Shown: positions 10,861 to 13,336 of the stretch, one piece after another
Layout: every line of letters starts with the position of its first letter
Numbering within the stretch: the stretch's first letter is position 1
Assembly: GCF_003144395.1 (NCBI RefSeq)
Contig: NZ_PENZ01000049.1
Location: forward strand, 377 to 64,376
From: Proteus faecis
GTDB taxonomy: Bacteria > Pseudomonadota > Gammaproteobacteria > Enterobacterales > Enterobacteriaceae
Length of the DNA: 64,000 nt
Reading direction: 5' to 3'
Made by a program: the position numbers and the translations under genes
The notes under the pieces: model-generated
Database searches by the model: none
What the model was told of the DNA's origin: nothing
What the model saw: the letters and a program-made list of their open reading frames with translations, nothing else

Positions 10861-12693
10861 TTAGTGTTTCAACGCATTAAAAATTTTTTCTGCTAATGCA
10901 GTCGAAATTGTCGGAACTTTCGCAATTTCTTCAACACTTGCATCTCGTAAAGCTTGTAGCCCCCCCATATATTTCAACAACATTTGACGACGCTTAGGTC
11001 CTACACCTTCAATAGACTCCAGTGAGCTGGTATTTTTTACTTTTGCTCTACGTTGACGATGCCCTGTTATCGCATGACGATGCGATTCATCACGAATATG
11101 TTGGATCAAATGTAACGCAGGCGAATCAGAAGGCAACGCCATTCCTTCCCCTTCTGGCACAAAAAACAAGGTTTCAAGCCCAGCTTTACGATCACTCCCT
11201 TTTGCAACACCAATTAATTTCGGGTGTGATTTGTCCCAATCAACATTAAGAGAATCAAATACCTCTATTGCTTGTGCTAATTGCCCTTTACCACCATCAA
11301 TAAAGATAATATCTGGAACCTTACTGTCTTCTAATGATTTACCATAACGTCGAGTTAACACTTGATTCATCGCTGCATAATCATCACCAGGAGTAATACC
11401 ACTGATATTATAGCGTCTATATTCCGATTTTAATGGGCCATTCATGTCAAATACTACACATGAAGCCACAGTTTGCTCTCCCATAGTGTGACTAATATCA
11501 AAACATTCCATTCGTTTTATCTCTTTCATATCAAGAAGAGACATCAAAGAGGTATAACGTTGTGATATTGTCGATTGTTCGACTTGTTTTGAAGCCAATG
11601 CCGTAGCTGCGTTTGTTCTAGCTAATTTCAAATAGCGCGCCCTATCACCACGCGGTTTTGTTTGAATTTGAATCTTTCGCCCTGCAATTGAAGATATAGA
11701 TTCAGAAAGGATCGCCTTATCTTCTAGATTAAAATCGAGCAAAATTTCAGTTGGCAAAGTGCGAATTGCACTACCTTGTAAATAAAATTGACCAATAAAA
11801 GTCTGAACAACTTCATCAATTGAAGTATTTGCAGGAACTTTAGGAAAATAACTCCGACTTCCTAACACCTTACCTTGGCGGAAAAAGAGAACATAAACAC
11901 AAGCAATCGCACCATTAAAAGCAACACTGATCACATCAAGATCATCACCAATATTGGCGACAAATTGTTTTTCAGTCACTTGTCTTACAGCTTGGATTTG
12001 GTCACGAATGCGAGCTGCCTCTTCAAAACGTAATTCTTGGCTAGCTTCTTCCATACGTTTAACCAACCCGTCAATAACCTGTGTATCATCACCTGAAAGG
12101 AAAAGCCTCACATAATTAACTTGTTGAGCATATTCTTCATCAGAAACATAACCTTTTACGCAAGGAGCAAGACAACGGCCAATTTGATATTGTAAACAAG
12201 GTCTTGAACGATTGCGATAAACACTGTCTTCGCATTGACGAATAGGAAACAATTTTTGCATTAATGCCAATGTTTCTCTTACTGCGAATGAATTAGGAAA
12301 GGGGCCAAAATATTCACCCTTGGCATGTTTTGCACCACGGTAACTAGCAAGTCTAGGGTGTTTATCACTGCTTAAATAGATATAAGGATAGGATTTATCA
12401 TCTCGTAACAATACATTATAGCGAGGTTGATAACGCTGGATATAGCTATGTTCAAGCAATAAAGCTTCCGTTTCTGTATGGGTGATCGTAACATCAATAT
12501 TTGCGATGCACTTCACTAAAGCTTCAGTCTTACGGCTATTTACCTGTGTACGAAAATAGCTAGAAAGCCTTTTTTTCAGATCCTTAGCTTTACCGACATA
12601 GATTACTGTGTCTGTCGCATCATACATCCGATACACACCTGGTTTATCAGTGAGTCGGCTTAAAAATGCTTTGGCGTCAAATTTGTCTTCCAC
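10861..12693 (-). CDS. uvrC: Excinuclease ABC subunit C
   Basis: The 610-residue UvrC nuclease that makes the dual incisions in nucleotide excision repair with UvrA and UvrB. Visible parts: the N-terminal GIY-YIG domain (GVYRMYDATDTVIYVGKAKD), the cysteine cluster near CLQYQIGRCLAPC, the UvrB-interacting UVR motif (FEEAARIRDQI), the RNase H-like C-terminal nuclease half (FDISHTMGEQT and FIDGGKGQL) and tandem helix-hairpin-helix motifs at the end (IEGVGPKRRQMLLKYMG). It is close to E. coli UvrC across its whole length. Its first 17 bases overlap the end of uvrY, so the two are translationally coupled. Confidence 0.98.
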   Translation of the reverse strand: MEDKFDAKAFLSRLTDKPGVYRMYDATDTVIYVGKAKDLKKRLSSYFRTQVNSRKTEALVKCIANIDVTITHTETEALLLEHSYIQRYQPRYNVLLRDDKSYPYIYLSSDKHPRLASYRGAKHAKGEYFGPFPNSFAVRETLALMQKLFPIRQCEDSVYRNRSRPCLQYQIGRCLAPCVKGYVSDEEYAQQVNYVRLFLSGDDTQVIDGLVKRMEEASQELRFEEAARIRDQIQAVRQVTEKQFVANIGDDLDVISVAFNGAIACVYVLFFRQGKVLGSRSYFPKVPANTSIDEVVQTFIGQFYLQGSAIRTLPTEILLDFNLEDKAILSESISSIAGRKIQIQTKPRGDRARYLKLARTNAATALASKQVEQSTISQRYTSLMSLLDMKEIKRMECFDISHTMGEQTVASCVVFDMNGPLKSEYRRYNISGITPGDDYAAMNQVLTRRYGKSLEDSKVPDIIFIDGGKGQLAQAIEVFDSLNVDWDKSHPKLIGVAKGSDRKAGLETLFFVPEGEGMALPSDSPALHLIQHIRDESHRHAITGHRQRRAKVKNTSSLESIEGVGPKRRQMLLKYMGGLQALRDASVEEIAKVPTISTALAEKIFNALKH

Positions 12694-13336
12694 TTTGTAA
12701 ATGACTCTCTATCTCAATTAACCCATAGCGTATTGCTATATGAGTTAATTCTACATCACCTGAGATTTTAAGTTTACTAAACATTCGGTAACGATAGCTA
12801 TTTACTGTTTTTGTATTAATATTCAGTTCACTGGCGATTTGTGTGATTTTTTTCCCTCTGATAATCATCGACATAATCTGCAATTCTCTTTCAGACAGAT
12901 GATGCAAAGGATTTAATTCTTGCTGTAATTTTGTTAGTGCGATTTCCATCGCTAACTCTTGGCTTATATACCGTTGACCGATGCAAACCTGTCGAATAGC
13001 TTGCAGAATATTGTCACAAGAAGTATCAACAACAATAAAACCCTCAATACCCAATTGAAGAAGTGTTATTGATAATATAGAGTCTGTTTTTGGTGAAATA
13101 ACAATTATTTTAATTGATAAAGAAGAACGCTTTATTCTTTTTATAGAGTCAATTAATGAGACTGAAGGCGTTGAGTAAAAAATAATAAGATTAACCGAAA
13201 ATTGTCGGCAATAGCGAAATGCATCATTTTCATCATTCATTACCTTTCGGATATTAATTTTTTTAATCTGACTAAGCAGTGTTTTTATTCCCAAGTTAAA
13301 TATTTCAACTCGACTTATTATCAATGTATTTATCAA
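12677..13336 (-). CDS. uvrY: UvrY/GacA-type regulator with a degenerate receiver domain
   Basis: A 219-residue NarL/FixJ-family regulator in the uvrY position directly upstream of uvrC. In enterobacteria BarA-UvrY activates CsrB/CsrC small RNAs. The C-terminal LuxR-type DNA-binding domain is intact (LSERELQIM, then KTVNSYRYRMFSKL, nearly the E. coli residues). The receiver aligns to E. coli UvrY without gaps, yet its catalytic residues are gone: D8 and D9 of the acidic pocket are S8 and R9, the phosphoacceptor D54 is Y54, and K103 is V103; T81 is S81. It therefore cannot be phosphorylated in the usual way. It is probably a constitutive or ligand-gated regulator, or one drifting to loss. The frame is intact, so it is not an obvious pseudogene. 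Confidence 0.88.
   Translation of the reverse strand: MINTLIISRVEIFNLGIKTLLSQIKKINIRKVMNDENDAFRYCRQFSVNLIIFYSTPSVSLIDSIKRIKRSSLSIKIIVISPKTDSILSITLLQLGIEGFIVVDTSCDNILQAIRQVCIGQRYISQELAMEIALTKLQQELNPLHHLSERELQIMSMIIRGKKITQIASELNINTKTVNSYRYRMFSKLKISGDVELTHIAIRYGLIEIESHLQSGRQI

Follow-up and report, generated by a model that had tools for sequence, protein, structure and literature searches.

The 64,000-nucleotide stretch of Proteus faecis DNA analyzed here (the window; contig NZ_PENZ01000049.1, positions 377 to 64,376) carries, beside uvrC, a gene for a UvrY-like response regulator in which the usual phosphorylation residues are altered. UvrY/GacA is a textbook phosphorylation-dependent global regulator, and the locus raises the question of what such a protein does once its phosphorylation site has gone, a question that bears on the control of CsrA in a bacterium without BarA. 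In Proteus the phosphorylation pocket is lost while the protein remains constrained, BarA was not found, and the csrB position holds a conserved UvrY box, a conserved promoter geometry and a terminated RNA-like unit. The reading that we consider probable from these sequences is that a vertically inherited uvrY has become a pseudo-receiver factor that would still drive a mini-CsrB RNA without phosphate, in a lineage lacking BarA. The features of the gene are as follows.

12677..13336, minus strand: UvrY-derived response-regulator-like protein of 219 amino acids with a TTG start (open reading frame (ORF) list, NCBIfam, uvrC neighbourhood)
12977..13336, minus strand: putative pseudo-receiver domain, residues 1-120 (sub-cut-off match to Pfam Response_reg, AlphaFold2 (AF2) fold, ratio of nonsynonymous to synonymous substitution rates (dN/dS))
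13310..13315, minus strand: S8-R9 at the Mg-binding acidic pair D8-D9 (alignment)
13175..13177, minus strand: Y54 beside the deleted column of the phosphoacceptor D54 (alignment)
13028..13030, minus strand: V103 where E. coli has the conserved K104 (alignment)
12716..12901, minus strand: LuxR/GerE-type helix-turn-helix (HTH), residues 146-207 (Pfam GerE, identity to E. coli, dN/dS)

The UvrY proteins of 20 Proteus genomes, that of the window and those of 19 congeners, were aligned with E. coli UvrY using MAFFT. Position 8 was serine in all 20, position 9 was arginine in 11, glutamine in eight and lysine in one, and the D54 column was deleted and followed by Y54 in every genome. Position 81 (E. 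coli T82) was serine in 19 and alanine in one, position 100 (Y101) was phenylalanine throughout, and position 103 (K104) was isoleucine (8), valine (5), alanine (5) or leucine (2). All 31 non-Proteus UvrY of the alignment, a count that omits the split uvrY of genome G088, kept D8, D9, D54, T82 and K104. Among the five active-site residues the three aspartates and the lysine are gone from Proteus UvrY and the threonine is changed to serine or alanine; the aligned sequences indicate that the protein has neither an aspartate for phosphorylation nor a metal-binding pair. A first-pass annotation of the window had proposed the loss of D8-D9, D54 and the lysine from this one gene, and the loss was confirmed in all 20 genomes; because they agree, a sequencing error or single-strain oddity is excluded. 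The same annotation had described a gap-free alignment to E. coli UvrY in which every phosphorylation residue was replaced. In the MAFFT alignment, by contrast, one residue is missing precisely in the D54 column, so that D54 can be read as deleted or as replaced by Y, and two residues are missing from the linker. The lysine, residue 103 of the Proteus protein, corresponds to K104 of E. coli, and the changes at T82 (to S/A) and Y101 (to F) are conservative ones. The uvrY gene of G088 (L088:1385-2070) carries a tandem duplication, short and close to codon 130, that splits it, and that of G267, from the same genus, is unbroken.

Across Proteus, dN/dS (pairs with undefined dS omitted) was 0.098 for the receiver and 0.067 for the DNA-binding domain, and therefore the gene is not a pseudogene. 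The Proteus receiver is 25-27% identical to that of E. coli UvrY, and in the window protein it scores 24.8 bits on Pfam Response_reg, short of the cut-off of 30.2. Its fold is predicted to be retained in an AF2 model, which was built on 11 Proteus sequences only and from which domain arrangement and dimerisation are not read. The HTH passes Pfam GerE at 62.7 bits and is 69% identical to that of E. coli UvrY, with the stretch KTVNSYRYRMFSKL unchanged; to call this domain almost unchanged, as had been done, was too strong. The proposal that the receiver is a pseudo-receiver stands, the chemistry being lost in 20 of 20 genomes, the domain being under purifying selection (dN/dS of about 0.10) and the fold being kept in the model.

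Another explanation of the same constraint, possible although clearly less favoured, is that the pocket, as changed, imitates the phosphorylated form; UvrY would then be a constitutive activator with an output set by its own expression and no signal passing through the receiver. A hydrophobic residue in place of the lysine and an aromatic one at the D54 site fit this explanation, as do the conservation of the DNA box described below and a receiver under the continued constraint expected of a dimer module. However, a receiver dN/dS of 0.10 could equally mean a new input, and the five genera compared below altered their pockets differently, which is unexpected for convergence on one locked state.

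The reading of a pseudo-receiver factor inherited from an ancestral UvrY requires that the gene is uvrY by descent. UvrY/SirA/GacA (NF007018) is the top NCBIfam family for the window protein, with 202.5 bits as against 95.5 for the runner-up, and the score lies below the curated cut-off of 280 bits. Judged by sequence, the gene is a diverged uvrY orthologue by descent and not a working member of the UvrY/SirA/GacA family. Proteus UvrY is 39-42% identical to E. coli UvrY in 20 of 20 genomes, while other members of the bacterial family that have a UvrY mostly show at least 70%. A named scan with two Proteus-derived peptides found relatives 80-97% identical in 10 Proteus records and was uninformative on other genera, the remaining two of its 12 loci being in unrelated bacteria (25% and 40%). 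The sub-cut-off score would also be compatible with another NarL-type paralogue, or a transferred gene, having taken the place beside uvrC. We regard this as highly improbable, since UvrY is far ahead of any other NCBIfam match, the gene overlaps uvrC, the HTH has the identity to E. coli given above and related genera carry equally diverged copies. No second UvrY was found in the assembly of the window's genome (G000; 3.9 Mb, 52 contigs), in which the proteins next closest to that of the window share 25% identity with it. Of the situations that the first-pass annotation had named as fatal to its proposal, a second intact uvrY was not seen in this assembly and an error confined to one strain is excluded by the 20 genomes. 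The regulator of G000 that comes next in similarity to E. coli UvrY (G000:C34, 37% identical) was considered as a second UvrY and rejected because UhpA is its best-scoring family, although that score is itself below cut-off.

A search of 147 genomes with E. coli BarA (E 1e-60) gave a match in 89 but in none of the 20 from Proteus. The best BarA matches of G000 cover the kinase core together with the C-terminal region of receiver and Hpt, and NCBIfam assigned the two strongest to ArcB (1376.6 bits, cut-off 838) and RcsC (1375.1 bits, cut-off 920). The match in P. mirabilis (G016) is likewise ArcB. The presence or decay of barA in the window's genome had been left as a point to check, and barA was not found there, its best kinases being ArcB and RcsC; its absence from the matches in all 20 genomes agrees with the earlier suggestion that UvrY works without phosphorylation by BarA. 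Replacement of BarA by another kinase was considered and set aside as beside the point in a UvrY without the aspartate. All 20 Proteus genomes carry csrA.

Since the Rfam CsrB model found nothing over its cut-off in Proteus, the csrB position was examined directly. The E. coli gene order is truC-yqcC-csrB-syd-queF, and truC-yqcC-syd-queF was kept in 15 of 15 fetched genomes, five of them Proteus. The syd-yqcC gap measures 463-473 bp in the five Proteus slots, each from a different species, and 23 bp after syd lies the box TGTGAGATATATCTTACA, identical in four of the five species and different by one base in P. hauseri. E. coli UvrY was footprinted on the inverted repeat TGTGAGAGATCTCTTACA, centred at -183/-182 of csrB (PMC4682653, cited here from parts of the article). 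The Proteus box matches this repeat at 16-17 of 18 positions, an identity reached by 0 of 300 Markov shuffles of each Proteus slot. Measured from its centre, the box lies 164-165 bp from the -10 motif ATTCTA in each of the five Proteus slots, compared with 170 bp in E. coli, the Proteus -10 being assigned by alignment with E. coli csrB only. In the window's genome, the interval separating the box from the small-RNA promoter contains a hairpin of 10 pairs, GCAATAAGTTATTAACTTATTGC, with a T-rich tail (L261:4832-4854, minus strand), which scores as a terminator; visual inspection showed no such terminator in P. mirabilis or P. myxofaciens.

UvrY might instead control mainly other genes, the box in the csrB slot being bound incidentally or by another regulator. 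That a single target slot was covered leaves room for this idea, but we think it rather unlikely, as the sequence, position and spacing of the box follow E. coli csrB and no box (up to three mismatches) was found in the 64-kb window, which excludes the slot.

Downstream of the box, all five Proteus species read carry a terminated unit of 189-200 nucleotides (nt) with 6-8 GGA motifs, that of the terminator included. A predicted consensus fold of the five units has 40 pairs, five of them with a compensatory change. One predicted hairpin has the stem GGAAAT/ATTTCC, with small variations, and AGGAT in its loop; another has the stem TGC/GCA and the loop TAGGAT or TTGGAT/C; the predicted 5' hairpin of the unit also holds a GGA. 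In CsrB, GGA hairpin loops are the places at which CsrA binds. The unit is like CsrB (RF00018) in its syd-yqcC slot, UvrY repeat, -10 geometry, GGA hairpin loops and terminator in all five slots, and unlike it in size and GGA content (about 190 nt and 6-8 GGA, compared with 369 nt annotated and 22 GGA in E. coli) and in being missed by the Rfam model. With a laxer CsrB search two of six Proteus genomes were matched, at 16.2 and 8.3 bits, and the 16.2-bit match, in G000, was dropped because it sits in an apparent coding stretch. A search for Rfam CsrC in Proteus found nothing over the cut-off, with one 43-nt fragment of 21.2 bits in G007, and a scan of the Proteus slot with Rfam gave only sub-cut-off matches to unrelated families. 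Rewired CsrB/CsrA control, as the first-pass annotation had implied, is thus supported in part, by the UvrY repeat, the conserved RNA-like unit at the csrB position and the general presence of csrA, while the failure of Rfam to find a CsrB goes the other way.

The course of events that we hold the most probable is the following. Neither a kinase nor acetyl phosphate can any longer phosphorylate Proteus UvrY on aspartate. The protein would still bind the inverted repeat upstream of a shrunken csrB of about 190 nt and activate it, and the small amount of decoy RNA so made may titrate CsrA. In place of the signal from BarA, control would now lie with the abundance of UvrY or with some non-phosphate input on the pseudo-receiver. 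Given a conserved DNA-binding domain and site in the absence of the aspartate, UvrY, if active, must have been freed from phosphorylation. Some of the literature is compatible with this: in vitro, phosphorylation changes the affinity of UvrY just about 2-fold, upward, and SirA fusions were observed to bind in the unphosphorylated form (both from parts of PMC4682653).

Several points weigh against this course of events. According to the same parts of PMC4682653, UvrY binding at csrB in vivo is about 35-fold lower without BarA in E. coli, a footprint is obtained only from phosphorylated UvrY, and substitution of Asp54 in Salmonella abolishes CsrB expression; given this dependence on BarA and Asp54, an unphosphorylatable UvrY should be inactive unless compensated. 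The Rfam CsrB model (RF00018, gathering cut-off 71 bits) matched 0 of 20 Proteus genomes at E 0.001, and the Proteus slots are modestly enriched in GGA (z of 2.0-2.8 versus mononucleotide shuffles). A sigma-70 scan did not call the proposed -35/-10, and the slots read are those of five of the 20 Proteus genomes, from five species.

The trait turned out to be wider than the earlier annotation held. A survey of 392 genomes of the family gave a match in 263, with 129 lacking one, 109 of these unlisted; the low-scoring single genomes G355 and G238, from otherwise normal genera, were not in the set read, and the stop-containing uvrY copy of G070 was omitted from the comparison. UvrY as divergent as that of Proteus was present in four more genera, g128 (4 genomes), g131 (4), g166 (1) and g48 (1). 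The best BarA matches of these ten genomes had E values of 2e-58 or weaker, versus 1.8e-115 or better in the comparison genera. Eight of the ten best matches were scanned and none reached the BarA cut-off (maximum 321.6 of 890 bits); they were RcsC (three) in g128, RcsC-like proteins below cut-off (two) and ArcB (one) in g131, ArcB in g166 (one) and another named sensor-kinase family in g48 (one). By their sequences, at least four further genera therefore appear to combine a lack of BarA with a damaged pocket. The residues found at D8, D9, D54, T82, Y101 and K104, in that order, are given below.

Proteus: S, R/Q/K, deleted, S/A, F, V/I/A/L
g128: D, D, N/S, N, I, A
g131: N, V/A/T/S, D, T, Y, Q
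g166: E, D, N, S, I, I
g48: E, D, N, S, I, V

D54 is kept in g131 and lost in the other four genera, Proteus among them, and K104 is lost in all five. A sixth genus, g13, has BarA and an intact pocket in five of five genomes. Identity to E. coli UvrY is 24-41% for the receiver and 60-69% for the HTH in the five genera, versus 66-70% and 82-85%, respectively, in g13. The combinations of lost residues differ by genus, which fits decay of unused chemistry after loss of the kinase better than selection for one altered pocket.

The csrB slots of these genera differ as well. The box is near-intact in g166 and g48 (15/18, matched by 0 and 1 of 300 shuffles). In g128 it is swapped for another palindrome, TGTAGG..CCTACA in three genomes and TGTAAG..CCTACA in one, and g131 is without it (10/18, the level of the shuffles). 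An RNA model (R1) built on the five Proteus units recovered all five, its own training set, and gave weak matches of 16.6-25.3 bits in four of four g131 slots; matches in g166 (12.4 and 11.3 bits) and in the window (11.8 bits) were at chance level, and none were listed for g128, g48 or g13. The g131 genomes (L248-L251) have kept D54 and lost the box, and a short unit weakly like the Proteus RNA is still in their syd-yqcC gap. In the g128 slots (L255, L258-L260) the syd-yqcC gap is about 1.5-1.6 kb, with an opposite-strand ORF of 298 amino acids in genome G166, and the g128 HTH is altered within the recognition stretch (KTVNTYRYRMFGKL). The changed half-sites and the changed HTH of g128 suggest that site and protein may have co-evolved.

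In a five-gene tree (TruC missing for G053, and PpnN for G323, G023, G045 and G053) Proteus, g128, g131, g166, g48 and g13 formed one clade (support 100), within which g166 grouped with g128 (100), Proteus with g13 (62) and g131 with g166 and g128 (61). A three-gene tree gave the six-genus clade a support of 99 and the deep groupings inside it 35-58, that of Proteus with g131, g166 and g128 receiving 35. As the order inside the clade is weakly supported, g13 may sit anywhere in it and BarA may have been lost once or several times. The g13 BarA matches (L183-L187, L208-L211) are in two parts, query residues 1 to about 520 and about 657 to 917, within frames of 788-795 amino acids, so that the segment between the two parts looks short or missing. 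In the four g13 genomes in which csrB was sought, it is degenerate, scoring 32-40 bits with Rfam, and BarA and csrB of g13 apparently represent an early stage of erosion.

It is tempting, and no more than tentative, to extend the reading to all of these genera: in five genera of the one clade BarA would have been lost, in one event or more, and the UvrY receiver would have been disarmed in parallel through changes at different residues, with the box kept in three of the five. The Proteus pseudo-receiver would have gained a non-phosphate input (a ligand, redox or a protein partner) that drives a miniaturised CsrB, turning a global two-component switch into a one-component system that keeps its ancestral target.

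The same comparison bears on whether the system is simply decaying, UvrY and the mini-CsrB being low-effect remnants in the absence of BarA and CsrA being nearly unopposed. Pointing that way are the fall of the csrB GGA count from 22 in E. coli to 6-8 in Proteus, the loss of the box in g131 and the relaxed receiver of Proteus UvrY, with a dN/dS of 0.097 versus 0.016 in an E. coli group. However, every one of the 20 Proteus genomes has an intact and constrained uvrY, four of five species share the same box and the fifth is one base off, and some compensatory changes are seen in the hairpins and the terminator, so we hold ongoing decay to be unlikely.

The retained pseudo-receiver factor favoured here can be placed beside known systems. 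It is like BarA-UvrY (GacS-GacA, BarA-SirA) in its uvrC neighbourhood, NarL/LuxR architecture, recognition helix, target repeat and csrB promoter distance. It differs in that Proteus lacks BarA as well as D8, D9, D54 and K104, which would make the His-Asp phosphorelay of E. coli, as described in parts of PMC4682653, impossible. A pseudo-receiver (PsR) has been defined by the absence of one or more of the five active-site residues (PMC12632262), and Proteus UvrY resembles the regulators of the PsR and aspartate-less receiver (ALR) classes (PMC12632262, PMC4395418; both cited in part), of which HP1043, ChxR, BldM and WhiI are examples, in a fold predicted to be kept, several of the five catalytic residues gone and no partner kinase. 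Unlike those examples, it descends from a system with a known kinase, target site and output RNA, and its switch-less state extends to the whole genus, other states being seen in related genera. A 2025 review describes PsR switching as remaining a mystery (PMC12632262, in the part cited). With ancestor, kinase, DNA site and output RNA all known, the survival of a response regulator after loss of its kinase becomes directly testable, the states available for comparison being an intact pocket, kinase and box (g13), box kept with D54 replaced (g166, g48 and Proteus) and box lost with D54 kept (g131). In the main texts of PMC12632262 and PMC4395418 neither UvrY nor Proteus is mentioned, nor is GacA in that of PMC4395418. 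Titles and abstract openings on UvrY, BarA, CsrB, CsrA or RsmA in Proteus, Providencia, Morganella or Morganellaceae, the longer lists being covered at their top and subscription journals mostly uncovered, yielded no published account of the present findings. CsrA has been reported among the fitness factors of P. mirabilis for catheter-associated infection (PMC5484520, cited in part).

The neighbouring gene in the window is as follows.

10861..12693, minus strand: uvrC, overlapping the 3' end of uvrY by 17 nt (ORF list; E. coli order)

In E. coli the order is uvrY-uvrC-pgsA, and uvrY is likewise upstream of uvrC in the window. The overlap of the two genes, which had been described as kept, is indeed present, at 17 nt compared with 4 nt in E. 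coli. Codons 208-219 of uvrY (12677-12715, minus strand) have a mean dS of about 0.02 among the 20 Proteus genomes, versus 0.49-0.92 elsewhere in the gene. Because the overlap with uvrC spans just 17 nt, a conserved uvrC translation signal is likely to lie within these codons.

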